Shown here one piece after another: positions 6,644 through 51,293 of a DNA stretch of 64,000 bases. The DNA is from Symbiodinium natans (lineage: Eukaryota; Sar; Dinophyceae; Suessiales; Symbiodiniaceae): contig CAJNDS010002634.1 in the NCBI GenBank assembly GCA_905221605.1, positions 620,001 to 684,000 of the forward strand, read 5' to 3'. Made by a program: the position numbers and the translations under genes. The notes beneath the pieces were generated by a model. That model was not told where the DNA came from and ran no database searches. It saw nothing but the letters and a program-made list of their open reading frames with translations. How positions within the stretch are numbered: position 1 is the first letter of the stretch; every line of letters starts with the position of its first letter.

Positions 6644-7210
6644 ATGTCCTTGGTCGCCATGCTGCTCCTGCGCTGCATCTTTGCGCTGCTGCTCCCCATG
6701 GCTGCAGCGTTGCGCGAGCAACCATCGGCCTCTCGCACCGGCGAGGCCGGTTTTCAGACGGCCAGCGGGTTGGAGCCGGACTCTGACGAGATTGTGAAGA
6801 AGGGTGCCTGGAAGTATGAGGACGCTGAGGCGAACTTTGCCTGGTTGAAGCCTGCCATCAAGGAGTGCTACACCAAGCACACGTGGACCGGCATGGACGG
6901 CGGCGCGAACGCGAACTATCAGCTGATGGCCATGTGTATCAAGGAAGAGTGCAACTATATCCCCCTTGGGAATTATTTTTGTTTATATAAAACCCAAGAG
7001 GGATACGAACAATACTATTGTTATTAAGGTTCTAAGGGGAGTATAGGCAAGAAGAACTGGTCTGGCCCCAGCCATGCCAGCAACGAAGTCACCATCGAGT
7101 CGGTCGAAGCAAGTTGGGGAAGCACCTTTGTTGAGCCTTTCCAAGACTACGCCCACTTGTGGCTGGGCTACAAGGGCCTCAGCATTGGCCTCATTCGCTA
7201 CGCGAAGTAG
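6644..7210 (+). CDS. Secreted protein, two exons split by an F1 introner
   Basis: Exon 1 is 6644-6950 and exon 2 is 7047-7210, giving 156 residues. The ATG at 6644 is preferred because it begins a typical signal peptide (MSLVAMLLLRCIFALLLPMA); an ATG at 6572 would add 24 residues in front of it. The mature part is polar with KECYTKHTW and a CIKEEC motif at the splice junction, then a Trp/Tyr-rich C-terminus ending at TAG. The intron begins GC, ends AG and rejoins the split Cys codon in frame. No family is recognised; an extracellular or lumenal role is inferred from the signal peptide only. A trans-splice acceptor could be the CCACAG at about 6479-6484. Confidence 0.72.
6951..7046 (+). mobile_element. 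F1 introner (GC-AG intron)
   Basis: A 96-base inverted-repeat element: left CTATATCCCCCTTGGG, right TTCTAAGGGGAGTATAG. The flanks carry the direct repeat GCAA (6951-6954 and 7047-7050). The left GCAA supplies the GC donor and the element's last two bases supply the AG acceptor. Removing it restores the secreted-protein frame exactly. The translated element has no protein character. Confidence 0.85.
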
Positions 7211-7369
7211 CCTCCAGCAGACGCCGTTCTTGCATTCGCCATGCGTCGAAAGTCTTGCTGCGCACGCCTGCCGAGCTACCTCTCAAAGTAGATAAGTTAG
7301 CCCAGGGTGTCTGCAAGGAGCTCCGGCATTGCATGTGGGGTCCGGCAAAAATTGGTATGTCTATAAATA

Positions 7370-7480
7370 TAAATATTAAAAAGTAAGAAACAAGCACACA
7401 CACACAAACAAATATACATATACATATATATATATATATATATATACAAATATACGTAAGATATAAATATAAATATAGCT
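7370..7480. repeat. AT-rich microsatellite stretch
   Basis: TATA and AAATAT runs with an ACACAC patch. This is a non-coding spacer downstream of the secreted-protein gene. Confidence 0.85.
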
Positions 7481-7524
7481 TGAATTTGTGTGTTGCAATA
7501 AAGGCCGGAAACGCACAGGGGCCT

Positions 7525-7650
7525 TCAGCATCTGGGGTCCTCTTGCTGCGGTTTGCCCAGGCGCAGATTCTCTTGGCCCTCGCAGCATCAGACCCCGACG
7601 ACGAGCTTTCCGTTCTGAGGCCGGCTTGGAGGTCCAGGATACTTGGGGCT
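7525..7650 (+). CDS. Exon-like segment
   Basis: The frame reads SASGVLLLRFAQAQILLALA followed by ASDPDDELSVLRP, GC-rich with a helical pattern. A CAG acceptor lies at 7528-7530. It ends near a partial F6 element (7652-7725, beginning CCGAAACTAGGG). The function is unknown. Confidence 0.42.
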
Positions 7651-7857
7651 TTCCGAAACTAGGGTTCACTTTTGGGGGGTTCCTATAATGAGGACGATAC
7701 TATTTTGGGGTATTTCAGGGTACCCCCCCCCCCCCATTTTTGGAAATACCCACATATTTTACCCCAATTCTAGCTGTGCTTACGACCCCCCCAAAGTCCC
7801 CCGAGTCCTCTAAGTAGATGATAAGTGCCCTAAACCTAAAACTCCAAACCCCGAACC

Positions 7858-7904
7858 CGAATTGGACTTATAATTGGGGGTCATAAGTACCCATGAACCT
7901 CCAA
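7858..7904. mobile_element. F3 element, right half
   Basis: ATAATTGGGGGTCATAAGTA then CCATGAACCTCCAAG followed by TA matches the right arm of F3. The left arm was not found next to it. Confidence 0.6.
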
Positions 7905-8091
7905 GTAAGTCTTTGGGTTGGTGAGGCAGTTAGCCGTTACTTCTCCGAGGGAAGCTGGGCTAAACCCTACACTCTGAACTCTAAACCCTAAACCCTAAAC
8001 CCCAAACCCTAAACCCCGAACAGAATCCTTGCCTGCTTCAGCGCGTGGAAACCCTAAACCCGAAACCCCAACCCAAACCCTAAACCCCAAA

Positions 8092-8178
8092 CCCTAAACC
8101 CTAAACCCTAAACCCTAAACCCTAAACCCTAAACCCTAAACCCTAAACCCTAAACCCTAAACCCTAAACCCTAAACCC
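8092..8178. repeat. CCCTAAA block, about 12 units
   Basis: A nearly perfect array of CCCTAAA, in the orientation opposite to the 5582 block. It is intron or spacer filler. Confidence 0.95.
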
Positions 8179-8208
8179 TTAACTAAACAGTGAACTCAAA
8201 GCCTTGTC

Positions 8209-8467
8209 AGTCCTGTGCAATGCCATGGGTGCTCATTTGGACAGTTCTGGTTCTTTTGCTTGGCTTCGAAAGGGGTGGAGGGTTGAGGGTTTAGGGTTTA
8301 GGGCTCAGTTTGTTGGTCTCAGAGATATTGAAATATATTCACATATACATATACATATGTGTGAGTTTACTTGTGTGTTTTTTGGGCAGCCGAACAAGGG
8401 ACCCCAATTTGAGGAACTGACCGTCGTAGGTTCGCGAGCCTCGCACAGTTCAGTTGAGAGTTCATAG
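8209..8467 (+). CDS. Two exon-like segments, second ends in stop
   Basis: Segment 1 (about 8209-8275, after TTGTCAG) reads LCNAMGAHLDSSGSFAWLRK. Segment 2 (about 8392-8467, after GGGCAG) reads PNKGPQFEELTVVGSRASHS and ends at TAG, so it looks like a C-terminal exon. Between them are TTTAGGG repeats and a TA/CA microsatellite, consistent with one intron. The joining phase was not resolved. Confidence 0.42.
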
Positions 8468-8663
8468 AGGTCCACGCCTCGGCACCCTTTGTCCGGAGAT
8501 GATTCAGGGCTGCAGATGCCCTAAGCCCTAAACCCTTAAACCCTAAATAAACCCTGAACCTTTCCCCTGAACCCTTAACCCTAAACCCTAACCCTAAACA
8601 CTAACAGGTTTTTGGGATCGTCCGGATTTTTGGAACAACCCCCCTCCATGGCCCAACTGCAGG

Positions 8664-8735
8664 GAGACCATGCAGCTGGCTGTGGCCCAAGGCTACGCGC
8701 CCACAGCTCAGCGTTGCGTCAGGGTTTAGGGTTTA
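8664..8735 (+). CDS. Ankyrin-like exon fragment
   Basis: After CTGCAG the frame reads ETMQLAVAQGYAPTAQRCV, which resembles the LHxAAxxGx helix of an ankyrin repeat. It is bounded downstream by TTTAGGG repeats. It is isolated, so it could be a decayed copy. Confidence 0.4.
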
Positions 8736-8955
8736 GGGTTTAGGGTTTAGGGTCAGCCCGAATGTATACAGCTCCCTTGACTCCATTGACAGGGCCCTGA
8801 AACCCTGAACCCCCTAAACCATCCTAAACCCAAAACTTAAACCCCTAGACCCTGAACCCTGAACCCTATAAAGCTTTCAGTGCTTTATGTTTCAATCTTT
8901 TGGGGGTTCAAAAGCCCTCGTAAGGTGTAGAAACCGAGGTCCTTTTACGATCCCT

Positions 8956-9170
8956 TGGATCCTCGGCGCGATCCCACCTTTGCCTGCATCTCAGAAGGTG
9001 TAGGGTTTTTGGTAGTGGTTGGGATGTTCCCCCTTATACTGGCAGTCCTTGATAGGGATTATAGAACTCGCACATTAAGGCCTGTTAGTAGAAGGGGGCA
9101 ACATCCCAAGGTAGAGGGTTCAGTGTTTGGATGTACCTCATCGCTGAAGCCTTGGGGGGCGGGGGGGGGG
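8956..9170 (+). CDS. Exon pair split by an F2 introner
   Basis: Exon 1 (to 9011) reads DPRRDPTFACISEGVGFL and exon 2 (from 9111) reads VEGSVFGCTSSLKPWG; removing 9012-9110 joins them in one frame with GT-AG borders. Exon 2 runs into a poly-G tract at about 9160-9185. No domain is recognised. Confidence 0.55.
9012..9110 (+). mobile_element. F2 introner (GT-AG intron)
   Basis: The element proper is 9019-9109, TTGGGATGTTCCCCCTTATA ... CAACATCCCAA, with flanking 8-base copies GGTAGTGG and GGTAGAGG. The donor GT lies in the left copy; the acceptor AG is the element end plus the first base of the right copy. The 8-base duplication fits a hAT-like transposase footprint. Confidence 0.78.
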
Positions 9171-9781
9171 GGGGGGGGGGGGGGGCTTATTTGAGTACAC
9201 ACCCTGAAACTCAGCCACTCGGGCCACGAAGGGCACCGACATTTTTTTTGGAAACCTCGAGTTTTCAGTCGGAACCCCAAACCCTAAACCCTGAACCCTA
9301 ACCTAATAAACCCTAAACCTTATAAACCCTAACCCTAAACCCTGAACCCTAAACCCTAAACCCTAAACCTTATAAACCCTAACCCTAACCCGAAACACGG
9401 AGAGGCTTCCTCGTCCAAATGGGGCATCCTTGGCATGAGACGGAGGCCTCCAGCTAGGTATGTAGGCCCCGTTTGTTTGTAATACTGCTTTCCCCAAGGC
9501 CTAAACCCTAAACCACCTTATTGGGTGGAAGGGGGTCATACGTAGGATGTTTTTGTCAGGGGGTCTTCGGGTCCATGTTTTTGTCAGGGGGTCTTCGGGT
9601 CCATCCGAGACAAGGTTAAGCTTCAAAGCCGCTTCAATGGCCTTGGGAACATGAGGTCCTGGATGACTTCAAGCTGAACCCGGAGCAGAAACATTTTGCT
9701 CCAGCCTCAGCCGGCCTCAACGGTTGCAGTCGCAGCTTCGGTTGTGTCGGAGTTGTGAGTTTTTCTTCCTTTTTTTCCAAC

Positions 9782-9803
9782 CGGGGGGGGGGGGGGGGGG
9801 GGA
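9782..9803. repeat. Poly-G tract
   Basis: About 20 consecutive G. Similar tracts occur at 9160, 13302, 18379, 18505, 35585, and as poly-C at 19041, 33690, 35341 and 41274. Confidence 0.9.
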
Positions 9804-9984
9804 GGTCTTTGACGATATAGGGACACACATACATATGTATATACACGTTTATTGTTGTATGTTTCGATGTATATTTTTAGTCGTTTATTCACCACTAGTA
9901 GTTTGCACATTGCATATTGTAGAACAGCATCGTATCTACGTACATATCATGCTTGTTATCTGTTGATTACAACATGGGGGGATG

Positions 9985-10115
9985 AAGCCCACCGAAACCC
10001 ACCGAAGTCCCACACCCCAAACGCTCCAAGGAAGTTCGAAAGCCTCAAACCCTATCAACTTAAGGAAAATGAGGCCACCAGGCAGCTCGGGAGCAGCCGA
10101 AGCCCTATAGGAGGT
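9985..10115 (+). CDS. Exon-like segment
   Basis: The open frame includes NPPKSHTPNAPRKFESLKPY then QLKENEATRQLGSSRSPIGG, hydrophilic and protein-like. It is followed by TTTAGGG and TTTTGGG repeats. It is probably part of the gene continued at 10193. Confidence 0.45.
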
Positions 10116-10192
10116 TAGGGTTTAGGGTTTTGGGTTTTGGGTTTTGGGTTTTGGGTTTTGGGTACCGGGCTCAAAAAGGGCTTCGGGTGCAG

Positions 10193-10499
10193 GCTTCCTT
10201 CTATCCCCCTTTCTACATCTGCATACCTTCTAAGGGATTATGAAGGGCACCTCATGCCGGAAGTCCCTATGCGATTCGCAGGTCCTGGGCCTCCGCCCCC
10301 TGGCCGCACATGCACCCTGCGTGGTGTCCGCCATGTACCTTAAGAACCCAAACCTACTGTTTTTCGGTAGGCTCTTCATATGAAGCCCTTATAGAGATCT
10401 TCTGTAACCTACAAGAAGAGTGGGTTGTGGGTTCTTTAGGTAGACATGGAGTACATGGAATTCAACGAATTCTGGCGTTTTCGGGCTTCTGGGGCTTTG
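10193..10499 (+). CDS. Two exons joined across an F7 introner
   Basis: Exon 1 (10193-10334) follows a GTGCAG acceptor and reads LPSIPLSTSAYLLRDYEGHL, then a Pro-rich stretch ending LRGVRH. Exon 2 (10440-10499) reads VDMEYMEFNEFWRFRASGAL and is followed by a GT donor at 10500. Removing 10335-10439 with GT-AG borders keeps the frame. No domain is recognised. An open frame at 10628-10846 may be a later exon of the same gene. Confidence 0.6.
10335..10439 (+). mobile_element. F7 introner (GT-AG intron)
   Basis: A 105-base element, CTTAAGAACCCAAACC on the left and TGGGTTCTTTAG on the right, flanked by GTA (10335 and 10440). The duplicated GTA provides the GT donor and the element end provides the AG. 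Related copies lie at 26374, 49352 and 56333. Confidence 0.8.
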
Positions 10500-10627
10500 G
10501 TTAAGGGGTTCTTAGGGGAGTTGTTTGGGGTTTTGCTGTAGGGTCTTGAGCCAGGATCAGCTGGTAATTGTTGGTTGAGAATCGGACGCAGTTTCCGTGT
10601 GTGCAAAAGGCTTGTGAGGTTTTGACT

Positions 10628-10846
10628 GCTACTGCGCAAACTCAACCCAAGTTGTGCCTTCGAAACCTGAACCGCCGGAGCTGCTCACTGAACCGCGTGG
10701 ACTATAACAAACTCCAAGAAGCTACGAAGACGCAGAGGCTACCCTCCCCAGACACGTGGCACCGAGTATGGCGCAAAGCTTACGGGACGCCCGGCGCTGA
10801 GCTTCTCGGAGCTTTCGGAAGGCTACCCAGCAGAAGAGAATCGTGA
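10628..10846 (+). CDS. Possible terminal exon
   Basis: An open frame of about 70 codons ends at TGA: AQTQPKLCLRNLNRRSCSLN, then VDYNKLQEATKTQRLPSPDT, then a Trp/Arg-rich tail. It is basic, with no domain recognised. The start is uncertain. Confidence 0.4.
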   Translation, partial: ATAQTQPKLCLRNLNRRSCSLNRVDYNKLQEATKTQRLPSPDTWHRVWRKAYGTPGAELLGAFGRLPSRRES

Positions 10847-11152
10847 CCCGAATTTCAACCCAGTGGCTTTGAAAGTAGCCACCCTTGCACCCTCGCACCC
10901 TGAACCCTATACCCCTAAGCTGCCTGCACCCTTGAACCAAAGCCTCTAAGCCTTGGGTCAAAGCCTCCAAGGCCCAAGACATTAGCGAACTCACGCTCCA
11001 AGGGCTCGTAATGTGGTACTGTTTGGCGTGGTATACTATAGTTTACTATCATGCCCTCTAAGAAACCTCAAGAAAAATACACTGGAGCCTTCATGTAGGC
11101 TTTCACACCAATATACACCAATGAAGTAGGGGCATGCTGGCTGCAGGTCCCT

Positions 11153-11232
11153 CCACCCTAAACCCTAAACCCTAAACCCTAAACCCTAAACCCTAAACCC
11201 TAAACCCTAAACCCTAAACCCTAAACCCTAAC
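11153..11232. repeat. CCCTAAA block, about 11 units
   Basis: A tandem perfect CCCTAAA array ending in a poly-C tract, directly upstream of an exon with a strong donor. Confidence 0.95.
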
Positions 11233-11249
11233 CCCCCCCCCACCCCCAA

Positions 11250-11346
11250 CTTGCTTTTGCGGGCTTCGGGGTCTCTAGATGCGCCCCGTTAACCCTGCAC
11301 TGCATTGCGTGCTCCTTCGCCGGCACCTTGGAAAGCTCAACGGAAC
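11250..11346 (+). CDS. Exon with GTAAGT donor
   Basis: The frame reads FAGFGVSRCAPLTLHCIACS then FAGTLESSTE and meets a consensus GTAAGT donor at 11347. The acceptor is not certain. The Cys/hydrophobic composition is unassigned. Confidence 0.48.
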
Positions 11347-11488
11347 GTAAGTGGATGAAACGCTGAAAGGTCAAAAAGGCCCTTCTCCTTAGACAAAGAC
11401 ATGCTTCCTGTCAAAACGACCCTAAGCCCCAAGCCCTAAAGTCGAAACCCTGACCTCCAACCAACCTCCACGATTCTTGAACCCGACA

Positions 11489-11699
11489 TGGCCATTGCAG
11501 AGAATCACACGGATCCAGCTTGCACAGCTTAAGCTACCAGGATGGGCGATTATGCCCTATCATCCCCATAGTCAACCCCATAAAAAGGGCTTTTTGAAGG
11601 GGTTCTGGGGTAGAACAACCCATCCTGGCAGCTGAGTGCTTGTGGAGAGTCTAACCCGGGCCTAGCTCGCCCCGCATGTGCCAGCGTGCCCTAAGCCCT
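11489..11699 (+). CDS. Exon pair split by an F12 element
   Basis: After ATTGCAG the frame reads RITRIQLAQL; the continuation after 11636 reads ACGESNPGLARPACASVP and ends at TAA. A GC-AG intron at 11533-11636 keeps the frame (joint codon AAT). Precise loss of the element between its AGCT copies also keeps the frame. Confidence 0.48.
11533..11636 (+). mobile_element. F12 inverted-repeat element
   Basis: The arms ACCAGGATGGGCGATTATGC and AGAACAACCCATCCTGGC are inverted repeats flanked by AGCT on both sides (about 11532 and 11631). A partial copy of the left arm lies at 36094. Confidence 0.7.
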
Positions 11700-12128
11700 T
11701 ATCAGCTGTAGAAGCCCCAAACCACCCTATAGGCCCTTAAACAAACTCCAAAAAAACCTCCGAAACCCTGAAAAATCTGTATAACCCCAAAACGCCCCAA
11801 GCCCCTTCAAAGAACTGAGAACCCAACAAACCCTACGTAACCTCCCCTCCCCCCTGGTAAGCCTTAAAACGGAACCGGATAGACCCGAGTCCTAAAACCT
11901 AAGCCCTACACCCTAAACCCTAGAGGCCCTAGACCCTAAACCCTAAATCCTAACCCCAAACCCTAAACCCTAAACCCTAAACCCTAAACCCTAAACCCTA
12001 AACCCTAAACCCTAAACCCCCCCCCCACCCGAGCCCTAAACCCTACACCCTACACCCTAAACTCTAGAGGCCCTAGACCCTAAACCCTAGACCCTAAACC
12101 CTAAACCCCCCCCCCCCCCCCCAAGCCA

Positions 12129-12230
12129 AAAAGCTGAAGTTCCTCAATCCAAAGAGGCCTAGTTGTGGTGAAGAACCGGCTGCCGCCCTCCCTGGAAAGC
12201 CTTCAGCCCGAGCCGCTGCTGACGGAAGAG
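12129..12230 (+). CDS. Exon-like segment
   Basis: The frame reads KLKFLNPKRPSCGEEPAAAL then PGKPSARAAADG and may end at a GC donor (AAGAG then GCCTTATT). It is followed by TTTAGGG repeats. The function is unknown. Confidence 0.48.
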
Positions 12231-12395
12231 GCCTTATTTGTTTTCATTTTTTTGGGGTTTAGGGTTTAGGGTTTAGGGTTTAGGGTTTAGGGTTTAGGGT
12301 TTGGGGTTTAGAGTTTGGGGTTTGGGGTTTGGGGTTTGGGGGGGTTAGGGTTATAGGGTTCGGCACAGGTTGCAAGGTAGGGTGTTGGCCTTGAG

Positions 12396-12711
12396 GTCAT
12401 CACAAGATTCGCGCCTTTCCACATGAAGCTTGGGATGTTCCCCCCTATACGAACAGCTCCTTAGTGAGTTACAATAGGGGTACAAGAATCCCTGTTAAGG
12501 GCTGTTAGTATAAGGGGGAGCATCCCAGCATGAACTCAAACGTTCTAGCTGCCACGGCCAGCGGTCAACACTAGAGTTCCAGCCTGAAGCCACAGACAGC
12601 TCCTTGAGCATCACCCTGCTGCAGGAGATTTTCGTGCGCCGCGGGTCGATGAAACCTTTGTCCCCGCGATGGAAGGCCCGGCAGTACAGCGGCGAGGGAC
12701 ATGTGCCGTGA
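12396..12711 (+). CDS. C-terminal exon pair split by an F2 introner
   Basis: Exon 1 is 12396-12427 (HHKIRAFPHE) and exon 2 is 12529-12711 (HELKRSSCHGQRSTLEFQPE, later SLSITLLQEIFVRRGSM), ending at TGA. The GC-AG intron 12428-12528 keeps the frame, with the target copy CATGAA retained on both sides as a His-Glu duplication. Exon 2 has clear protein character. No family is recognised. Confidence 0.6.
12428..12528 (+). mobile_element. F2 introner (GC-AG intron)
   Basis: TTGGGATGTTCCCCCCTATA on the left, TAAGGGGGAGCATCCCAG on the right, and internal ACAGCTCCTTAGT/AGGGCTGTTAG arms. CATGAA flanks both sides within an imperfect 8-base duplication. Confidence 0.75.
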
Positions 12712-13301
12712 GAATGTGGCGGCTTGTCATTGCATAAATTGCATACCCTAAACCCTAAACCCTAAACCCTATGCACCTCGCAGTCCGCACTTTGAATTCC
12801 ATCGAATTTAGTGCCTTTGTGCAAGTGCAGCACAGGAGGCTGAGCCTCCGAATGAATTCTCAGAATGCGCACGAATCCCCGAATTCATGCAGAATTTATC
12901 CGCATTCCCCCTGCATCCCCCCATCTGGTTTGCCGGCTTTGTCTTGTTTTAGTTAAGCCCAGGTGCCGCAGTATGGTTTCCCGTGCACGCAAGAGCGGAC
13001 GCGAATGCAAGTTGCCCCAGTGAATTAGTGCATTAGTGTGCATGTGTGCGGCTCCAGTTCTGAGTGACGATGCCACAAAAAAGGGGGACATAGACACGAC
13101 AACACTCACATCGGGGAAACCCGCTCTCCCCCACTGCGCGGGACGACACGGCGGAAGCCGATGGCGCGGCGCGGGGGGGGAGGGGGGGGCTGGAAAGGCA
13201 CGCAGTGCCGGGCGGCGCCGTTTCACTCTACATTTCACTCTCTCTCCCCTCCTCCCTCCCTCTCTCCCTCTCTCTGTCATGACGACGGGGTCTAGGACCT
13301 A

Positions 13302-13304
13302 CGG

Positions 13305-13352
<48 letters not shown>
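13302..13352. repeat. Poly-G tract, about 50 bases
   Basis: The longest G run in the window, about 170 bases upstream of the 13527 ORF and preceded by a CT-rich tract (13225-13278). A homopolymer of this size may hide assembly length error. It could form G-quadruplex structures. Confidence 0.93.
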
Positions 13353-13354
<2 letters not shown>

Positions 13355-13526
13355 GGTCCCGAAAACTGCTAGAAGTACCTGACTCACCCCCAAAACCCCT
13401 AAACATGTCTGGCGCATCACACATGGCCCCCACCCTACGAGTCCGAACAAACCGCCCGCGCCCAGCGACATCTACTTTCGAGCCCGCTAAGCGTAGCAGC
13501 ATTAAGGCCAGGGTAGAAGCCTCGCC

Positions 13527-14519
13527 ATGGAACACCACCCCGACAGCGCTACCCAGGAGCAGCAGCCGGAGGCCACTTGGATGACGCAGGTCCTGGCGGT
13601 GGTGGCTCTGAAGTTGCACCAGTTAGACCTCGCTGAGGCCAACCTGTGGATGTGGGCATTGTTGCTCGTGCTTGTGATGGGAGTGCTTGGGTCTTTGATA
13701 GGCATGCGGCTCCGCCGCCCCTCCCCAATGGAGTCGCTAGTGCAGGGACCAAGCCAGGCAGCGCAGGCAGACGCAAGCGGGGTGCCCATGACCCAACTGC
13801 AAGACGTGCTGAAGGCGGCGCTGCAGCCGCCGGTGCGCATCCTCACGGAGGTCAAGACGGCTCTGGAGCGGCTGAAAGCACAGAGCGAGGCCGATACGGG
13901 AGCCCGCCAGCGGATGGACACCCAGGTTGACAAGCTTGGGCAGGCCTTGACCAAGGTGGAGGGCATGGTGGACGACATGGGGACGGCCCTGCAGGCGGTC
14001 CGATCCAAACAAGACATGCTGGATGGCAAGCTTACTGCCAACAGCAACGAGGCAAAGCGCCGCTTTGACGCTGTGGAGAGTCGGCAGACAGAACTGGAGA
14101 AGAAGGTGGACTACCAGGCCCGTGCCACACAGGAGCTCATCAAGGAACTCCAGGCATATCAGGCGACGGATCACAAGGCGGCCCAGGACAGTCTGCACTA
14201 CCTGTGTGGGGCGGCACAGGAAACCCTCAAGCAAGTCCGAGCGGTCGCCGACGCATCGTGGTCCGATGGCGAGTTTCTCAAGGAGATCCAACAATGCCTG
14301 GAGGACCTCAAGCCCAAGCAAGGGCCATGGAGGCAGCCGCCGGCGTCGTCGTCGACGGGCAGCCAGGCGGAGGGACCGGCGCCGACGGGACCACCGGTGA
14401 TCAATCTCCAGGATCAGATCAGCATGCCAATGGGAGGATACGCGACGGTCATCTTCCCTCAGGGCCATGCAATGCCGATCAATGTCGCGGCCTTGGGGAG
14501 ATTCATGTCGCAAAGATGA
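13527..14519 (+). CDS. Membrane-anchored coiled-coil protein, 330 aa
   Basis: A single uninterrupted ORF from ATG to TGA. Residues about 41-61 form one hydrophobic helix (MWALLLVLVMGVLGSLIG) followed by basic RLRR. Residues about 90-225 are Glu/Lys/Gln/Ala-rich with heptad character (LTEVKTALERLKAQSEA, RQTELEKKVDYQARATQEL), predicting a long coiled coil. The tail is Pro/Ser/Gly-rich, then a compact segment (MGGYATVIFPQGHAMP). Topology is likely a short N-terminus, one helix, then a coiled-coil domain. It resembles structural or ORF1-like proteins of mobile elements, but no family is recognised. It lies inside the 12771-17029 island. Confidence 0.7.
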   Translation: MEHHPDSATQEQQPEATWMTQVLAVVALKLHQLDLAEANLWMWALLLVLVMGVLGSLIGMRLRRPSPMESLVQGPSQAAQADASGVPMTQLQDVLKAALQPPVRILTEVKTALERLKAQSEADTGARQRMDTQVDKLGQALTKVEGMVDDMGTALQAVRSKQDMLDGKLTANSNEAKRRFDAVESRQTELEKKVDYQARATQELIKELQAYQATDHKAAQDSLHYLCGAAQETLKQVRAVADASWSDGEFLKEIQQCLEDLKPKQGPWRQPPASSSTGSQAEGPAPTGPPVINLQDQISMPMGGYATVIFPQGHAMPINVAALGRFMSQR

Positions 14520-22464: not shown

Positions 22465-22568
22465 TCGGGATGTTCAAAACCGTATTTAACAGTCCTTGAT
22501 AAAAAATTTTGTTACGCCCTGTTTGAATCCCTATTAAGCAGCTGTTAGTATAAGGGGGAACATCCCAA
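22465..22568. mobile_element. F2 element, decayed left arm
   Basis: The left TCGGGATGTTCAAAACCGTA and the right CTGTTAGTATAAGGGGGAAC then ATCCCAA are F2. CCCTAAA repeat abuts the right end and no target copy remains. Confidence 0.7.
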
Positions 22569-23177: not shown

Positions 23178-23375
23178 CCTACTTGGAGGTTCATGGTACT
23201 TTAGACCCCATTCAAAACTGTTCTTATGGCCCACTTACTAGTATAAGCCCCTTGAGTGCCCATATGTGGTTATAATTGGGGTATAGGTACAGTTATCGTT
23301 GGGCAACCCTAAACCCTACACCCTAATTAAACCCTAAACGCTAAACCTAGTAAGTACCATGAATCTCCAAGTGCC
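23178..23375. mobile_element. F3 element invaded by telomere-like repeat
   Basis: It starts TACTTGGAGGTTCATGGTAC and ends AGTACCATGAATCTCCAAG. Inside, before the right arm, a block of degenerate AAACCCT units (about 23305-23348) interrupts an otherwise recognisable F3 body. Confidence 0.7.
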
Positions 23376-36198: not shown

Positions 36199-36414
36199 GT
36201 GATGAAGCAGATGCGGCCCAGCTGCAACTCACACCAGACTCACATTCCCTCAGCTATATCCCCAAAACTCTATTTGTGTTTATATAAAACCCCAGAGGAT
36301 ATTAAAGGTAATATGTTTTTAAAGGTTCTAAGGGGAGTATAGTCAGTTCTTTCAATACAGCCCAGCCATTTGCGAATTCCTGCGGGACAGCGCACGTTTT
36401 TTCATTGCCTTAAA
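36199..36414 (+). CDS. Exon pair split by an F1 introner
   Basis: Exon 1 (36199-36252, after TTCCAG) reads VMKQMRPSCNSHQTHIPS; exon 2 (36343 to about 36414) reads SVLSIQPSHLRIPAGQRTFF then HCLK. The GC-AG intron 36253-36342 keeps the frame, with the target triplet TCA present on both sides as a Ser-Ser joint. The function is unknown. Confidence 0.55.
36253..36342 (+). mobile_element. F1 introner (GC-AG intron)
   Basis: Left CTATATCCCCAAAACTC, right GGTTCTAAGGGGAGTATAG, with TCAG on both flanks. The interior GTTTATATAAAACCC is shared almost exactly with the copy at 6951, so both derive from the same family. Confidence 0.8.
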
Positions 36415-36951: not shown

Positions 36952-37145
36952 GAGAGGGGTTTAGGGTTTAGGGTTTAGGGTTTAGGGTTTAGGGTTTAGG
37001 GTTTTGAGGAGGGGCTTAGACCTTGAAAAACAACCACCTTGATTCTTGGTGATCAGGTCCTGAGAAGGAACAGCAGGCCCATAAACGCCCTAAACCATGC
37101 ATACGTAGCCCGATCAGCCCCCCAAAACCCTACAAACCCCTTCAC

Positions 37146-37243
37146 TAAGGGATGCTTGGGAATAACTTTTTTAAGTTTTGGGCACTATAACTCCCAAGAA
37201 ACAGCATGAATCTTGACTTGTGCCAGGGTCCCATATTCAGTAG
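37146..37243. mobile_element. F9 element
   Basis: ACTAAGGGATGCTTGGGAAT on the left, AGGGTCCCATATTCAGTAG on the right, and central CACTATAACTCCCAAGAAAC match the introners at 46409 and 48716. CTTCA occurs on both flanks, slightly offset. Confidence 0.7.
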
Positions 37244-37374
37244 AGCTTCAAGCAGGCTCCACCATGCGCGCAGCCTGCCACACATAGCGCTTCTGGAGGA
37301 GCCAAGGGGCTGGAAGGCTTTGTGCGCCCTAAACCCTAAGCCCTAAACCCTAAACCCTAACCCCAAACCCTAAA

Positions 37375-42872: not shown

Positions 42873-42979
42873 GCCTCTCTCTCTGTGTGTGTGTGTGTCT
42901 GTGTCTCTGTCTCTGTCTCTGTCTCTGTCTCTGTCTCTGTCTCTGTCTGTGTCTGTGTCTGTGTCTGTGTCTGTGTCTC

Positions 42980-43010
<31 letters not shown>

Positions 43011-43345
43011 CTGAGTGAGTCTGAGTGTGTCTCTCTGTCTCCCCGTCTGTCTGTCTGCCTGCCTGTCTGTTTGTCTGTCTGTCTGTCTCTGTGTGTGTGT
43101 GTGTGCGCGTGTCTGTGTGTCTGTGTGTCTGTCTCTGTGTGTCTCTGTGTGTGTGTGTGTGCCTGCGTGCCTGCGTGTGCCTCTCTGTGTGTGCCTCTCT
43201 GTGTGTGTGTCTCTGTGTGTGTCTGTGTGTCTTTGTGTGCGCATCTGTGTGTCGCTGTGTGTGCGTCTGTGTGTCGCTGTGTGCGTGTCTGCGTGTCTGC
43301 GTCTCTGCGTCTCTGTGTGTGTGTGTGTGTCAGTCAGTCAGTCAG
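42873..43345. repeat. CT/GT satellite, about 470 bp
   Basis: TCTGTG, TCTGTC and GTGTGT words. All frames are open on both strands and encode C/V/S or T/H/R runs. This is a compositional artefact and not a gene. Confidence 0.94.
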
Positions 43346-43700
43346 TCTCTTTTTCAAGAGTTTCATGATTGGCATTCCGGCTCATGGACTCCCACGCCAA
43401 GTCTATCAACCCTAATCGAAGCTGAGGCCCATCAGAACTCCTGGAGGCTTCTCTGCTGGGCGACATAAAGCAAGCTGGATGGGTGCTGGTGACCCGGGCC
43501 AAGATGGCATGTGTCAAGCATCGTTGGTGGTGTTTTGAGCGCTTGCCGTGTCATGGTAAGGTTTGAAGCTTGAAACAGGTCCTTTAAATTTGCTTCAGGC
43601 GCAATTGAGGCGCAATTGCTATGCATCGGCCAACGTTATTTGTACAGAGATTGGGGAACCCAAACCCAAAACCCTAAACCCCAAAGCCTAAACCCTAAGT

Positions 43701-43806
43701 CTGGCTTGAGATGGCTTCCAGTGGCTGCACCCGTGCCGAGGAGACTGATGACAAGGCCCACAGCGTCGCAACTTGCTCCTTGGCTCATGGCCTGTGTAGA
43801 GGGTGA
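43701..43806 (+). CDS. Possible small exon with ATG and stop
   Basis: The frame reads LEMASSGCTRAEETDDKAHS then VATCSLAHGLCRG and stops at TGA. The Cys-containing acidic composition is plausible. The alternative frame VAAPVPRRLMTRPTASQLAP is also open, so confidence is limited. Confidence 0.35.
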
Positions 43807-43883
43807 AACGACCGTGGGCCGTGCACCCTAAACCCTAAACCCTAAACCCCACACCCCAAACCCCAAACCCCAAACCCTAAACC

Positions 43884-44099
43884 CTAAACCCTCTGGTACC
43901 CAACCGCTGCAGCATCGGAAGCTGAAGAGGCATATTGAGGTTCCAAGGTCCAGCTGGGCCTCCAGACAGTTTCGAAAGACGCCCAGTAGTAGCTTAAGAG
44001 GTTGAGGTCTCGGATGAGCAGGCAGACCTTGGTCAGTTCATACGAACACCTCCATCGCATGCTTGTGAGGGCTCCGTTCGAAATCTGCACCATGTCCAA
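43884..44099 (-). CDS. Possible minus-strand exon
   Basis: The minus frame reads MRWRCSYELTKVCLLIRDLN then LLSYYWASFETVWRPSWTLE, more protein-like than the plus frames over the same bases. It would be one of very few minus-strand coding pieces; it may be a decayed retroelement fragment. Confidence 0.28.
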   Translation of the reverse strand: MDMVQISNGALTSMRWRCSYELTKVCLLIRDLNLLSYYWASFETVWRPSWTLEPQYASSASDAAAVGYQRV

Positions 44100-44424
44100 A
44101 ACAACCCCTAAGCACTAAACATGCGGAAACGAGCAGGGTTCAGGGCTTAGTGTGTTTAGCAGGCAACCCTGGAGCCCGAATGCCTCAGCTGAAATCGGAT
44201 TTGCGGCAGTAGTTCCCAAAACCTGACCTTCCCGCCCAAACTCGACCGGTCGGTTTTTGGGCTTTCGGGTTTATAAGTGGTCGTATAGGGCTTATCGTGT
44301 TCATAGAGATTAGGGGTTAGGGCTTACCCCTAAACCCTAAACCCCAAACCCCCTAAACCCTAAACCCTAGGCTTAGGGCTTAGGGCCTCCTTTGAAAAGG
44401 CCCCCTCTCATTACAACAAAACAG

Positions 44425-44506
44425 GCACCGGATGGCTGCCGCTGCACGTGGCCGCAGCCCAGGGCCACCTGGACATCTGCCGAGCACTGCTTCGCCCCAT
44501 GGCAGG
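44425..44506 (+). CDS. Ankyrin-repeat exon
   Basis: After AAACAG the frame reads TGWLPLHVAAAQGHLDICRA then LLRPMAG, a textbook ankyrin repeat (TPLHxAAxxGHLxICxxLL). A GC donor follows GGCAGG at 44507. It belongs either to a separate ankyrin gene or to an upstream part of a related one; the LamG-like gene lies between it and the 48.6-54.3 kb ankyrin gene. Confidence 0.68.
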
Positions 44507-44715
44507 GCGTTTATTTTTTGTTTTTAACTTTTAACCCCGAAGACTTGGGCCTTCAGGGTTTAGGGTTTAGGGTTTAGGACCGGCCCTGAACATGATGGCT
44601 GAAAATTCTGGCTGGTGCTCACATATCTGAAAATCATGATTCTTACAAGTGAAGGGGTTCCATGTAAGCAGTTTGGAGCTTAGGCTTTGGGGGCTTTGAA
44701 GGAGTCAGGGGTTCG

Positions 44716-45111
44716 GTGGGCCAAGTTTCCGGCAGCTTCCCGTGTTTTAGAGTTCGCACTTCAGAGACAGTTTTAAACACGTGCACTTGCCTGCTGCGCC
44801 CGATTGTGAGAGTCGCCAGCCCTTGCATGTTGGCTCAATCTCATGCCTGTGAGTTTTGGTTGAGACGGATAACACAGTTGTGTCTTAAGTGCAAAAGTTC
44901 TTGCAGAATCACCATATCCCCCTTGGGAATCATTTTTTATTTTATTGATATAACACCCAAGAAGATATTAAGCATATTTTTTAATTACGGTTCTGAGGGG
45001 AGTATAGATCACAGGTTCATACCGCATATCAGTCAATACGCAGCATCAACGTCAGAGGGGCGAGTTTTTGGAAGGAACAGGCAGGCTTTGTACCCGAGGC
45101 AGTGGAAGTAA
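44716..45111 (+). CDS. Exon-like frame around an F1 element
   Basis: Upstream frame: VRTSETVLNTCTCLLRPIVR and SPCMLAQSHACEFWLRRITQ. Downstream frame: FIPHISQYAASTSEGRVFGR ending at TAA. The F1 element between is itself open in this frame by chance. A GA-AG join or loss of the element is possible, but neither follows the rule seen at the better introners. Confidence 0.38.
   Translation: MGQVSGSFPCFRVRTSETVLNTCTCLLRPIVRVASPCMLAQSHACEFWLRRITQLCLKCKSSCRITISPLGIIFYFIDITPKKILSIFFNYGSEGSIDHRFIPHISQYAASTSEGRVFGRNRQALYPRQWK
44917..45006. mobile_element. F1 element
   Basis: CATATCCCCCTTGGGAATCA on the left, GGTTCTGAGGGGAGTATAG on the right, flanked by ATCAC on both sides. Confidence 0.75.
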
Positions 45112-45277
45112 GGCAGCTAGCAAGCCTCGTAGGGGCTCAAACTTAGGGTTTAGGGGTTAGGGTTTAGGGTTACTACAGGAGCCCTGAAGCAAAAAAAGGT
45201 TTAGGGTTAGGGTTTGGGGTTTGGGGTTTAGGGTTTAGGGTTTAGGGTTTAGGGTTTAGGGAGTCAATCTCTCCAAA

Positions 45278-47342
45278 ATGCCTGCAGAAGCCGCCGATGC
45301 AGAGACGGTGCCTCGCGGAGCCCGCCGCTGGTGGCCTGATGTGATGTCACCATCGCTTGCCGCAACAGTGAAGCAAGAAGCTTGCACCAGCTACCCGTGG
45401 AAGCCTGCGAGGAATACGATGTCAATGTGGCAAATGAACTTTCCGCAGACGTTGCCAGGTGGACATCGGAACCCCATTTGTGCATTAGGGGAGTGCGGCG
45501 ACCCCATGTGCCCCACATTTCGTCCCAAGCATCCAGAAGTTCGAGAGGCTGTGGAGAAATGCATCATGGAAAAGTGCCTGGAGAACTTCCAGCCAGGTAA
45601 ATTGCAGACATACGCTTCGATAGGCTGCGGCTTGCTAGGCCAGGATTGGATCATTCTTGAGCAAATGCGGCGCCAGCAGATGCTTCCGCGTCGGGCAATT
45701 TTCGTGGAGCTGCGCACAGCGAAGCCTGTGATGACGTGTGAAGGTGCTGAATTTCCAAGGATGAGCAAAGGTGGTGGCATGAATCTACGCCAAACAGGGT
45801 TTTGCGGCGACTTGGGTCCTGATTTTGGTTTCAGTGCCGTGTTGCAGTTCAACAAGCCCGCTGGCAATTCCAGTAGCTTCCTCTTCGATTTCTCGGACGA
45901 TGCTCGGCGAGATGTCATCTATGCAGAAGTCGGTGGCACTGATGCGATTGGCCACATGACTTTTGGTTGCATCATTGGCGACCAAGCCCATCGTCTGCCT
46001 GTGGAGGATTGCTGGGAGCCAGGTGAACAGGCGCACACCTTCTTGTTCACAATCAGTGCTGTTGGGATGTACACAATCTACAAGGATGGACAGGCGATCG
46101 CGAGATCCTATGGGCCGCCCCCTCAGTCGTCTCGAAGACGTCATCTCTACGTCGGGCAGTGTGCTCCGAACAAGGGAGGTCACCATAGCTTTGGCGGCCG
46201 CATCCAGAAGATTAAGGTTTGGGATCAGGAAGTTGACACACTGGCAACAGATATGATGTACAGCCACGAGGTAGCTAACGCCCATCAGACCATCGCCCAG
46301 TGGTATATGGGTGAAATGGACGTGTGGTCCTTCAGTAGCTTAGCAGCTTACGCGGCTGCCTGTGAAAAGGACGCCCGATTTGCGGCAGATCTGCTTCTGA
46401 AAGTTGATGTTCCTTAGGGGTACTTGGAAATGATTTTTAGTTCTTGGTTACTACAATTCCTAAGGAACAGCTAAATTTAACAGAATTTTGCTAGGGGTGC
46501 CAAGTTCTCAGTATAGGTTCATGATGAGCTAGATGGCTACGATGACTTCGTTTGCAAGGCCTTGGGGCCCAATGGCTTGGCGCTGACGTTGGGTGGTCCT
46601 GGGAAAAGCTGGCGACGGTCTGGGACAGGCTGGATACCTGTGGACACGAAGTGTGCTGTTCTGGATTCTGCAGAAGAAAGGAGTCTCGTGCCCTGGGCAT
46701 TCATGGGTGCGTTCCCAGGACATCAGGACAGGCAGCACTTCTTCACGAAGGCATTTCAGGCACAGCGCGCTGACTGTTCTGAAAGTCGGCGGCCGCCTCG
46801 CCAGAGAAGGCCCCGGAGATTCAAAGCGGCACCTCGAGCTGGCAGAGCACGGGCTCGCCGAACGGGAGCTGCAGATCCACAACACTCGGGAAGCTGGTAC
46901 GGCATGACCGATGCTTAGTAGTAGAGTAGGTAACCTTTAACCTTTTTGGGGAAATATCGTCCCCTTATAATCCCAAAGGTTAACCCTTAGCTCCCCTACA
47001 TACTGGACAACTAAGGATGAAGTTGCAAACCCCGATGAGGTCTCTGTCTTGGGGCTCCTGGACGAACTGCAGCAACGAGCCCCGGGCTTCCAAGGCCAGC
47101 TGAGCAATTTTGAGTTTGGAGCGCATCTGGGTCAGATTGGAGATCATTTTCCTTCTTTCTGAATACTTCTAAACCCAACAAGGAACAAAATGATATTTGT
47201 TTTAAAATGGGTGCCCCCCAACAAAAATGGTGCAGGAGCGATCTCCTCCTGGACATTGACGCTGCAGAAGAGGATGCCCCCGCAGACGAAGACCTTCCTG
47301 GCCTTGTCATCTACGGAGCGAGGTGACGCTGTCAGCCTTTAG
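45278..47342 (+). CDS. Four-exon gene with a LamG-like domain
   Basis: Exons 45278-46408, 46517-46909, 47016-47139 and 47236-47342 total 1755 coding bases (584 residues), with every joint in frame. Residues about 108-132 (LQTYASIGCGLLGQDWIILE) resemble a methyltransferase motif I region but the rest of that fold is missing. Residues about 183-320 form a concanavalin/LamG-like beta-sandwich: FGFSAVLQFNKPAGNSSSFL, HTFLFTISAVGMYTIYKDGQ, HLYVGQCAPNKGGHHSFGGR, IQKIKVWDQE. Exon 2 adds GYDDFVCKALGPNGLALTLG and an Arg/Pro-rich stretch where a shifted frame (LTVLKVGGRLAREG) reads better, so one sequence error or a missed micro-intron is possible. Exon 3 reads DEVANPDEVSVLGLLDELQQ. Carbohydrate or protein binding is the likely role; a signal peptide is not evident. 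All three introns are introners. Confidence 0.7.
46409..46516 (+). mobile_element. F9 introner (GT-AG intron)
   Basis: 108 bases, CTTAGGGGTACTTGG on the left and GGGGTGCCAAGTTCTCAG then TATAG on the right, flanked by GTTC (46409 and 46517). The duplicated GTTC gives the GT donor; the element ends in the AG acceptor. The element contributes an in-frame TAG, so it must be spliced for read-through. Confidence 0.87.
46910..47015 (+). mobile_element. F10 introner (GA-AG intron)
   Basis: 106 bases, CTTAGTAGTAGAGTAGGTAA on the left and TACATACTGGACAACTAAG on the right, with inner AACCTTTTTGGGG/CCCAAAGGTT arms. GATG flanks both sides. Splicing at GA ... AG joins ACC to GAT in the LamG-gene frame and removes the TAG at 46916. 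Confidence 0.82.
47140..47235 (+). mobile_element. F14 introner (GA-AG intron)
   Basis: 96 bases between copies of GAG (47140 and 47236), weak inverted ends (ATCATTTTCC and AAAAATGGTGCAG). The GA-AG join keeps the frame to a TAG at 47340. A different acceptor phase would give an acidic tail (LLLDIDAAEEDAPADEDLPG), so this joint is the least certain of the three. Confidence 0.6.
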
Positions 47343-48593
47343 CGTTTAGGGTTTAGGGTCTAGGGTTTAGGGTTTAGGGTTTTGTTTCACCCGTTGTGAA
47401 GATCCAGGCACCGAAGCTTATGCCGAGACAAGAAAAAAGGTGCCACTGGCTTGGCTCAACCTCAAAGCCTGCCGCGCCATAGCTCAGAACTCGAGGTTTT
47501 GTTCGGCATTTCTCCGGGTTCCAGCACCCGCAACCAACGGGGCCCTAAGCCCTGAAGCCTGAACACTCTCGGCCTTCTTGTATAGGGAATTCAAGAATAT
47601 TCAAGACGTCCTTTTCTTTGGGGATCAAGTATGAACCCTAAAACGTGTTTATGGTTTATATGACCTGAAAACAGGGAACATAGAAGTATAGGGTAGACGA
47701 CCTCGATTTTTTTCGAGCTCATGTGGTCCCCGAGACCTCTCTTGTAGAGTTCAGCAGGATTTGGGGTTCATGTGGGTTTAGGGTTTAGGGTTCATTTGGG
47801 TTTGGGGTTTGGGGTTCAGGGTTAGGGTTTAGGGTTCATTTGGGTTTTGGGTTTTGGGTTTAGGGTTTAGGGTTTAGGGTTTAGGGTTTAGGGAGCTTCA
47901 CCGACCCCCGCCTTCGGCCCCAGGCCGAAAGGCAGCGGTGAACCCAGCGTCGGCTTCTGGTCTTCCAAGAAGCAATATTTCTTTGTCCTAACCCCCCAAA
48001 CCCTAAACCCTAAAGGCCCTAAACCCGTGTGTTCTGTTTTATCCGGCATCTTTGGCATCTTAAGCTGTCGGGACCGTCTCTGGAATTTGGCTAGGGGATT
48101 GTGCTTTTTTCTCGGGGGGGGGGCGGGGCTGGTAGGGTCGTCGCCCCAGCTGACAGGAGAGGAGACTGGGTTGAGAACGGGTTTGGGGTTTAGGGTTTCG
48201 GGGTTGAGAGCGGGTTTGGGGGTGAGCGTTTGAGGTTGGAGGTTTGTTGGCGTAGGCGGTGTCTCCGACTTCTTGGCACGAAGGGGTCATTAGGGTGGTT
48301 GGTTGCATGCCGCAGTTGGGGCGGGGATGAGATGAGGAACCGAACAGCTTGACCCTATATGACCCTAAACCCCTTCAACCCTATGATCCTAAAACCCAGC
48401 AACCCTACAACCCCCAAACCCTATAACCTCATAACCCTACAACCCTACAACCCCCAAACCCTATAACCCTATAACCCTACAACCCTACAACCCCTAAAAG
48501 CCCTACAACCCTAAAACCCGATAACCCTGAAAGCCCAATAACCCTAGTAGAACCTTATAACCCTCCAACCCTCTAACCATCTAACCCTACGAG
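47343..48593. other. Spacer with telomere-like and CCCTATAA-type repeats
   Basis: This contains an F4 fragment (47637-47705), TTTAGGG blocks (47340-47383, 47776-47892) and a degenerate CCCTACAA/CCCTATAA tract (48340-48590). A short exon-like piece at 47893-47985 (RKAAVNPASASGLPRSN) is not supported further. Confidence 0.55.
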
Positions 48594-51293
48594 GACTCCC
48601 TGGGTGGCATCTCCCCACTCTCTCTGGCGTGCTTGTCTGGCCAACCCAGCTTGGTGCAGCTGCTCCTCTGCGCAGGCGCATCGATGGATGGCCCCGAAGG
48701 CCACGGAGGGGCCCCGCTTCTTAGGGATTCTTGGGAACCTCTTTTTTTTTAAGGTTTTGAGGTACTGCAAGTCCTAAGGAGCAGCTAAGATCAGAATTTT
48801 TGCTAGGGTTCCAAGTTCAGTATAGGCTCCTGCATGCTGCGTACAAGAACTTTGCTGGGATTTGCGAGATCTTGCTTGATTCCGGCGCCAGCCCCCACGT
48901 AGCATTCACGCGCAGCGGCCATATTCAACTGGAGAGCCCAGCGATAACGCCGCAACACGAGGACCACTGGCACCAAGTACTTTGTGAGCCCAGCCAGGGA
49001 GGGTGCTCGCTGCTGCAGCTCCGCACAGAAGCTTACTTAGCTAAGAGTTGAACTTTAAACTTTTTAGATTTCCTTCTTTAGTAGGAATAGTAAAGCTTAA
49101 CCTTTTTCTCCCCTTGGTTGTTGGAGAAGTAAGGAAGGAGTCACTGCCCTGCATCTGGCAGCTTGGCACGGCAGTGTCCGGATCTGTTCCTAGGCGTTTC
49201 CCAAGCATCACGTGTTGTTTATTGTTTTTGCATGCAGTGTACACATGAAACAATGTACTGTGCGAAGCTAGAACAGTCATCTGTAGAACATATCGGTTTT
49301 TCTGTATCTATCTATCCATCTATCTATCTGTATATAATGTTGCTTTCCTTAAGACATCAAAACCTGCTTTTTGAGTTTTTGAGTAGAAAGCCCCTTATAG
49401 AATCCTTAAGTAACCTACAGGACAGCAGGTTGTTTGGGGGGGGTTCTTAAGGTTTCTCTACTATACCCTCTCTTCGTTCAAAACCTGCCTTCAACCCTAA
49501 ACCCTGAACCCCAAACCCTAAACCCTAAACCGCGCAGGCTGGGCCCTGATCCAGGCCTCAGCGCGGCCCGACGCCAGGGACCGACTGCACCGCTCCGCGC
49601 TGATGCTGTCGGCCGAGAGGGGCCACCTGGAGGTGGGGTTTAGGATTTAGGGTTCAGGGTTTAGGGTTTAGGGGCAGAAAGGTTTAGGGTATAGGGTTCA
49701 GGGTTTAGGGTTTAGGGTTCAGGGTTTAGGGTTTAGGGTTTAGGGGCAAAAGGGTTTAGGGTTTAGGGTTGGTCTCTGGTGCCCGAGCGCAGCCCTCAGT
49801 CAAGGCATGAGGCAGCTCCCAGATTCGTTTAGGGGCAAAAGGGTTTAGGGTTTCGGATTTAGGGTTTAGGGTGTAGGGTTTAGGGTTTTGGGTTTAGGGT
49901 TTAGGGTCTCGGGCTATGACGACTTGGTAGCCCAGTGGTACCCTTTACTTTTTTTTTGGTTTCTGGCTTCCCGTATAAAATAGCCAAACCAAAAAAAGGG
50001 GTGCCCTTATCAGAATATGGCTACTGGTCTAACATGACGAGTATGGTTCCGGCCATGAATGTCACTGTGAGAGCTTTGTCGTTTGCGACTGTGGCTATGC
50101 TCATTGTGATCAAGACTTCACGACTAAGCATGTGTGTTTTGAAGCTTTTGGGTTGTTCCAGTGTCCTGCAGACCCGAAACCCTAAGCCCTAAACCCTAAA
50201 CCCTAAACTCTAAGCCCTAAACCCTAAACCCCCGGTTTGTTGAGATTTGTGTTTGCCGGCTGTCGTTGGGGGAGTCTTGGGGGGCCTTGGGTGTTTATAA
50301 GGCCTTTGAGAGGGGTGCCTCCTTGCAGGTGGTGCGGCTTCTGCTGGAGCCGCGGGCCTGCACTTTAGGGTTTAGGGTTTAGGGTTCAGGGTTCAGGGTT
50401 CAGGGTTTAGGGTTTAGGGTTTAGGGTTTAGGGCATTTGAACCTCGGAGTTCAATCCTTGGGTTTGACAGCTTCATCGGGAGGCTTTGAGGCTCGGCATG
50501 TTTTACTGGCCGCCCTCCTTCTCAAGTGGAGCCTTCCGCATTTCTAGTAGCCGCAAACCTTCTGGCACCCTACTACTCCGAGCTCTTTACGATCGCTACT
50601 TCCTACCAGCTTCCAAGCCGCTGCACCAAGCTGAAGAAGCCGTCGATGATTCTTGAAGCCGAACACCCCAACCGCAACCTTCAACCTGCAGACTCGGGCC
50701 ACGCGTTTTGGGGCCTTATCTGCTTTGGGGCTTTGGGTCTTTAGGACCTTCAACCTCTGTCGGATCTTTTTTCTCAAACGTTTAAAGGGGAATTCCGAAA
50801 ATAGGGGCACCCCTTGTATTATTAACCCCTGATATACCCCCCCAAATAATCTAGAATCCTTTCAAATGAACCACCCAAGAAAGGGTACCCTATTTTCGGA
50901 AACCTGTTTGTGGGTCTCGGGGAGTTTCTTGCTCGCCTCCGAACGGAAACCCTAAACCCTAAACCCGAAACCCGAAACCCCAAACCCTAAACTGTAGAAA
51001 TGGCGCAGCCCAAGGCAGCGGGCACACCTCCATGCCAGCACCTTGTCCTGAGGAGTACAAGGAGGGACCCGGTTTAGGGTTTAGGGTTTAGGGTTTAGGG
51101 TTTAGGGTTTAGGGTTTAGGGTTTAGGGTTTAGGGTTTAGGGTTTAGAAGGGACCCTTAATCTTATTCCCCTCTAGAACTCTTATGTCTACCTTATATAG
51201 TCCCGGTCCCTTGATTGTCCAGTTTCGAAAGAACCATCGCGCGCGTTTTGGGGCAGTGCTCCCAGTTCTGCCCCCCCCCCCCCTCCTTTTTTA

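Follow-up and report, generated by a model that had tools for sequence, protein, structure and literature searches.

The window, the whole 64,000-nt stretch of DNA analysed here and the frame for all coordinates, contains seven candidate introns, which we name I1 to I7, together with other copies of short repeated elements; its features described here lie on the + strand. An earlier note had drawn seven introns here, each an element flanked by a direct repeat of 3-4 bases that begins with G. All seven segments are present where it placed them, with G at the start and AG at the end (7/7), and the frame stays open when I1, I3, I4, I6 or I7 is removed. These five are supported as introns at those coordinates; I2 lacks coding support and I5 had been given the wrong bounds. 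The flush 4-base repeat is complete in I1 (GCAA), I3 (GTTC), I4 (GATG) and I7 (GAAG) and matches at 3/4 positions in I2 (GTAC/GTAG), I6 (GCTT/GCTC) and I5 at its earlier bounds (GAGA/GAGC). The CT..AG-type ends described as common to the elements are found in the same five introns, and in I2 with one additional base, but not in I5.

I1 (6951..7046) belongs to family F1 and has more than 40 relatives in the genome. Its left target copy, GCAA at 6951-6954, supplies a GC donor, the element occupies 6955-7046 (CTATAT...TATAG) and the right copy, again GCAA, follows at 7047-7050. The surrounding gene A (6644..7210) has an open frame and encodes a 156-aa protein after I1 removal, for which a Pfam search returned no family and a protein search matched only an ORF of the window itself; I1 is supported by that frame and by its coding score, 41.5. 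I2 (10335..10439) is an element with a coding score of 11.4 against a 95% null of 21.2, and as this falls under the null we cannot claim that it belongs to a gene. The codon model is weak: on positions from the ORFs that trained it, it finds the right frame in 74% and exceeds the 99% null for 66%. The first exon of gene C was among the training sequences.

Gene C (45278..47326) holds I3, I4 and a corrected I5, and is related to sequences of Symbiodinium sp. KB8 and to an MMETSP transcript. I3 (46409..46516) has GTTC on the left, giving a GT donor, the element CTTAGGGG...TATAG and GTTC on the right. I4 (46910..47015), relatives of which were found, has GATG on both sides, giving a GA donor, around the element CTTAGTAG...ACTAAG. 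Protein relatives, including the MMETSP transcript-derived protein P0002, align gap-free across both junctions. Taken as 47140-47235 (96 bases), I5 throws the conserved C-terminus out of frame, and these bounds were dropped. The protein relatives favour 47123..47235, a GC-AG intron of 113 bases, removal of which gives a protein ...FGASDLLLDIDAAEEDAPADEDLPGLVIYGAR that is gap-free against them. With two alternatives, 47135-47235 and 47142-47239, the C-terminus is again in frame, but the protein gains residues absent from the relatives. The corrected I5 has no flush repeat at its edges (GCAT vs GAGC), and hence no target-site duplication, and no relatives of it were found in the 289 kb searched. 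I6 (48716..48825) shares its family with I3; the left copy GCTT gives a GC donor, the right copy is GCTC, the element is CTTAGGGA...TATAG, and the join is covered by Pfam Ank_2. I7 (49028..49133), for which relatives were also found, has GAAG on both sides, giving a GA donor, and the element CTTACTTAG...AAGTAAG; the sole family covering its join is Ank_5, with a score exactly at the cut-off (27 of 27 bits).

Two further F1 copies in the window have non-coding flanks, at 36254..36342 (target TCAG, coding score 9.5) and 44912..45007 (target ATCA, coding score 8.8), as does a copy of the I4 superfamily at 49923..50036 (target ACGA, coding score 11.5). A copy of the I3/I6 family at 37145..37245 is flanked by the repeat CTTCA (5 bases, by eye). 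Scanned generically for inverted repeats with a direct repeat, the window gave 14 candidates and its reversed sequence 22; as the scan did no better than this control it was not used, and the evidence is the repeat family, not generic repeat structure.

Across the genome F1 has 752 exact-start copies, with 0 in the control. Its terminal inverted repeats are CTATATCCCCCTT / CTATACTCCCCTT; those of the other families are imperfect or short. The F1 sample leaves out 3/53 profile matches (two without matching ends, one shorter than 60 bases) and 1/20 later copies (L070, end not found). Among the 37 copies with perfect terminal pentamers the flanking repeat is 4/4 in 31, 3/4 in 4 and fewer in 2, where chance would give 4/4 in about 1 in 256 per copy. 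Several copies of I4/I7 were found, and 7/13 refined copies of the I4 superfamily carry a 4/4 target-site duplication. Such repeats might instead be splice-site consensus, a G donor and a G past the acceptor AG, since both are described as general in Symbiodinium minutum and would be enough for a first-base match (PMC4083563). We regard this as highly improbable, because the match in those 31/37 copies extends over four bases, its letters vary by site and it is found at non-coding flanks too.

Above-cut-off Pfam families cross the join in the copies L045, L019, L061 and L050, and the joined protein of L050 matches casein kinase 1 with no gap over the join. At L045 (454-575) a clean 4-base repeat was not found. 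A protein search with L067 gave one protein (83% identity, 57% of the query covered); this search was left out of the evidence. By Pfam, L044, L015, L045, L019, L050 and L061 lie in gene-sense orientation (only sense readings were submitted). This would fit the model put forward for fungal introner-like elements, in which they spread as RNA and reverse-splice into exons. Such a route is exceedingly improbable, given the inverted repeats at the ends of F1, the 4-base duplications and the many copies with non-coding flanks, target duplications being found outside recognised coding sequence.

A comparison of exonic with other copies had been proposed in the earlier note, with a strong G-first bias in the exonic copies only as the mark of selection, and for F1 the outcome is of that kind. 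Where the 4-bp repeat of a sampled copy is perfect, the target is G-first in 16/16 with coding flanks vs 10/31 with other flanks (Fisher p = 4.5e-6), the latter close to the 27% G content of the flanks. With 3/4 repeats included the counts are 20/21 vs 12/40, and the contrast persists at coding-score cut-offs of 17.1 and 35. Donor use in the 16 coding copies is GC 11, GT 3, GA 2 and GG 0. The exception is L033, with a coding score of 30.7 and a 3/4 repeat, ACAA/AAAA, that is not G-first; three other copies that are coding by score have no clear repeat (L018, L057, L065). That the leading G holds across families is carried mainly by F1. The I4/I7 superfamily agrees in small numbers, and one I4-superfamily copy, L026 (score 25.4), has the target TCTT as refined and is not G-first.

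We also considered that the transposase itself favours G-initial (or GNNC) targets, and that the introns only inherit this bias. A strand-symmetric target preference predicts equal numbers of G-first and C-last targets. In the 752 copies, pooled without a coding label and with flanks read for a small part, 301 are G-first vs 213 C-last (p = 2e-7 with the overlap estimated from the listed copies, p = 1.2e-4 with no overlap). The G-first share, 40% genome-wide, does exceed base composition, and C-last is also commoner in coding F1 copies (9/16 vs 6/31, p = 0.019), both in line with a G-preferring transposase. Gene-rich introner families are likewise described as tending towards GC-rich insertion motifs (PMC9860276). 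Given the C-last enrichment, target preference may be a part cause, and a weaker target bias exists alongside the filter, with C-last enriched in coding copies and C-first uncommon. As the main source of the leading G, however, a transposase preference is improbable, since G-first targets make up all sampled coding copies but about one third of the others, and outnumber C-last targets in the full set. In the target lists (the first 100 of the 301 G-first and the first 100 of the 451 other copies), the deficit of GG is not significant (6/100 vs 13/100, p = 0.15). The leading G looks mainly to reflect which insertions can be spliced out, not where the element lands.

Our reading, to which we give a probability of about 0.85, is that the elements are non-autonomous DNA-transposon introners of a Symbiodinium-like dinoflagellate, and that G-first is mainly a survival filter plus a weaker target-site bias. 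Directly visible in the sequence are the CT..AG ends, a 4-bp target duplication (seen best in F1), copies both inside and outside coding sequence, and joins that restore conserved proteins. A transposase would cut with a 4-base stagger, and four target bases would be duplicated. For an element inserted in an exon, the left copy would supply the donor with its first two bases and the element the acceptor with its final AG; splicing would then join the right copy to the exon again, with zero net change. This splice rule fits I1, I3, I4, I6 and I7 and the 16 coding copies in the F1 sample; it fails for I5 as first drawn, and I2 is without coding support. Because the spliceosome takes GT, GC and GA donors, the target would have to begin with G on the sense strand. 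Insertions lacking it would damage the gene and be lost, which would make G-first mainly a filter on survival. The non-coding copies come close to showing the range of targets before any filtering, so the filter becomes visible by comparison, and two look-alike causes in lists of introner introns are separated: the landing sites of the transposon, and the insertions that the spliceosome permits to survive. The G past the acceptor AG in Symbiodinium could have arisen simply in this way. It is possible, although we think it rather unlikely, that 4-bp-duplicating transposons wrote much of the lineage's splice code, with GC/GA donors and the G after AG as copies of past G-first targets and the tolerance of the spliceosome for GT, GC and GA (perhaps not GG) setting the survivors.

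In Micromonas and Aureococcus, Huff and colleagues reportedly described in 2016 introns made by non-autonomous DNA transposons, with one splice site taken from the target duplication. Those introners appear to differ from the present elements in repeat length and in their canonical splice motifs (PMC7789003). The introner elements of Amoebophrya are alike in that inverted repeats (8-20 nt) and direct repeats (3-5 nt) mark the intron edges, but most introns there are described as non-canonical, with dinucleotides that vary widely (Farhat et al. 2021, PMC7789003), whereas the coding copies here use GT, GC or GA with AG. Numerous intron-making introner families, like those seen here, are known in dinoflagellates (Roy et al. 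2023, Curr Biol, as summarised in PMC11453091), and GC and GA donors are described as usual in Symbiodinium minutum (PMC4083563). The introners of Symbiodinium microadriaticum likewise have a 4-bp duplication and terminal inverted repeats, with the 3' splice site inside the element and the 5' one derived from the duplication, and GC/GA donors are known in introners (Gozashti et al. 2022, PMC9860276). The splice rule that had been put forward as new is thus already in print for that species, with the target copy giving the 5' splice site and the element giving AG (PMC9860276, Fig. 2B legend), which makes our result a modest one. The available passages of that paper contain no comparison of first bases between exonic and other copies. 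What is new here, in elements otherwise of known type, is the answer for F1 to the question of selection versus transposase.

All seven segments claimed as introns in the earlier note, I1 (6951-7046), I2 (10335-10439), I3 (46409-46516), I4 (46910-47015), I5 (47140-47235), I6 (48716-48825) and I7 (49028-49133), start with G and end with AG. The flanking repeats are flush and complete over four bases for I1 (GCAA), I3 (GTTC), I4 (GATG) and I7 (GAAG), whereas those of I2 (GTAC/GTAG) and I6 (GCTT/GCTC) match at only three positions and may each represent a four-base duplication with one later change. For I1, I3, I4, I6 and I7 the frame stays open after excision. For gene C (45278-47326, forward strand), which holds I3, I4 and I5, relatives including the MMETSP transcript-derived protein P0002 align without gaps across the I3 and I4 joins, KVDV|H(D/E)ELDGYDDF and WY(G/S)MTD|E. 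Among relatives other than the window's own ORF, the top score went to a protein of Symbiodinium sp. KB8 (80% identity), which makes a Symbiodinium-like dinoflagellate the likely source. Gene D, freed of I6 and I7, matches ankyrin models in Pfam, with the I6 join inside Ank_2 and the I7 join covered by Ank_5 only, exactly at its cut-off. Coding potential was scored with a codon model on flanks joined after removal of the element and one repeat, with 21.2 as the 95% level of reversed-sequence controls; the model, trained on long ORFs from the fetched DNA, is modest, finding the correct frame at 74% of its own training-ORF positions. I1 is supported by its open frame and a score of 41.5, while I2 scored 11.4, below the control level.

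The boundaries proposed for I5 were wrong. As a 96-base intron it is rejected, as the conserved C-terminal end of the relatives (P0001, ...ASELLLEME...DEDLPGLMIYGAR; P0002, ...RSDVLSDLD...EELPGLVIYG) falls out of frame. A 113-base GC-AG intron at 47123-47235 instead yields ...FGASDLLLDIDAAEEDAPADEDLPGLVIYGAR, a gapless fit to the relatives. A flush repeat is absent at these positions (GCAT against GAGC), no I5 relatives were found in the 289 kb searched, and I5 is not a demonstrated introner. The observation holds for five of the seven introns and for many copies besides.

The start of I1, CTATATCCCCCTTGGGAA, has 752 exact matches (395 + 357; control 0) in the 759 Mb assembly of 2543 contigs. 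For F1, the family of I1, a first batch comprising the window and stretches around all 41 genomic hits (289 kb) gave 53 profile matches, with ends assignable in 50; the first 20 exact-start places added 19 usable copies and four unrelated 10-kb stretches added 1. A full four-base repeat flanks 47 of these 70 copies. Among the 37 first-batch copies with perfect terminal pentamers, four bases match in 31, three in 4 and fewer in 2. Some F1 copies (L022 and L023, target GTTT) sit inside telomere-like TTTAGGG/CCCTAAA runs, of which many internal examples are spread over the window (for example 5590-5685, 8060-8180 and 11160-11230). By eye, and with approximate coordinates, the window also holds a second MITE-like type with long inverted ends CTTGGAGGTTCATGGTACTT ... 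AGTACCATGAACCTCCAAG (5806-5957 and 23180-23372) and a third with inverted ends TGGGATGTTCCCCC ... GGGGGAACATCCCA (9018-9108, 12429-12527 and 22470-22568).

Several F1 copies interrupt conserved domains. In the sampled stretch L050 a copy with target GATG lies within a casein kinase 1 domain, and the joined protein is gapless across the join against solved casein kinases. Pfam families above the cut-off cross the join there (kinase) and in L045 (EGF), L019 (GDPD) and L061 (ankyrin; repeat three of four). For L044 (RCC1) and L015 (ephrin-receptor-like) the displayed above-cut-off stretch is confined to one side of the join, and L067 (GH5 cellulase) falls under the cut-off. The element runs in gene sense in the Pfam-matched F1 cases, for which only sense readings were submitted; by the codon model alone, 12 of 16 coding F1 copies are in sense. 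Several introners of different families were also seen close together within one gene in L040, L019 and L050.

The earlier note had read the first-base G as a target preference across families, and this does not appear to be the main cause. Among F1 copies with full repeats, all 16 coding copies, I1 included, are G-first, against 10 of 31 others (p = 4.5e-6). Adding three-of-four repeats gives 20/21 against 12/40 (p = 5.8e-7), the coding exception being L033 (ACAA/AAAA, score 30.7); L018, L057 and L065 are coding-scored with no clear repeat. With full repeats, a coding cut-off of 17.1 gives 17/17 against 9/30, and one of 35 gives 11/11 against 15/36 (p = 4.6e-4). Two F1 copies in the window whose flanks lack coding signal have targets TCAG and ATCA. 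As the F1 ends are symmetric, a target preference should raise first-base G and last-base C equally, and comparing the two in the same 752 copies requires no gene calls. G-first occurred in 301 and C-last in 213 (p = 2e-7 with overlap estimated from listed copies; p = 1.2e-4 with zero overlap). If intronic copies are 100% and the others 32% G-first, introns would make up roughly 12% of these 752. The G-first bias therefore looks mainly like selection by splicing, and a smaller target bias stays unexplained. C-last is enriched in coding copies (9/16 against 6/31, p = 0.019) and C-first targets are uncommon (1/31 of the others; about 15% genome-wide, estimated from listed copies), neither of which the splicing filter explains. 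Gene-rich introner families tend toward GC-rich insertion motifs (PMC9860276, sections consulted), a tendency that may contribute to this leftover bias.

The donors of the 16 coding copies are GC in 11, GT in 3, GA in 2 and GG in none, against GT 42, GA 28, GC 24 and GG 6 in the first 100 listed G-first copies of any context. Of the first 100 other listed copies, 13 carry G as the second base, which does not differ significantly from the 6 GG (p = 0.15). In the superfamily of I4 and I7, ends were assignable in 13 of 36 profile matches and full repeats were present in 7. Targets above the coding cut-off were GCAG, GAAC, GATG, GCAA and TCTT, and those below were GATA and ACGA, the latter in the window; a further copy, in L050, has target GAGG and a score of 27.8. 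In the TCTT copy one G precedes the repeat and another ends the element, which also permits a reading as GTCTT with GT-AG ends. Beside EGF-like coding sequence, a superfamily copy at L045:454-575 has GTGCGGC/GTGTGGC flanks, no clean four-base repeat and no clear frame across it. A copy of the I3/I6 family at 37145-37245 has, by eye, a five-base rather than four-base repeat, CTTCA.

The splice rule, in which the target copy gives the donor and the element the AG, holds for the five introns and is a known introner mechanism. No paper on a first-base comparison was found among the titles and abstract openings searched, and we claim no priority. Introner elements are described in Amoebophrya (PMC7789003), and searches in other dinoflagellates are reported in PMC10666404 and PMC10522408, with Roy et al. 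2023 cited by PMC11453091. According to the portion consulted of PMC4083563, GC donors are almost as common as GT, GA is used, and the acceptor AG is often followed by G. The consulted sections of PMC9860276 describe, for S. microadriaticum, introners with 4-bp duplications and inverted repeats in which the element supplies the 3' splice site and the duplication the 5' one, and report indications that introner insertions are under negative selection.
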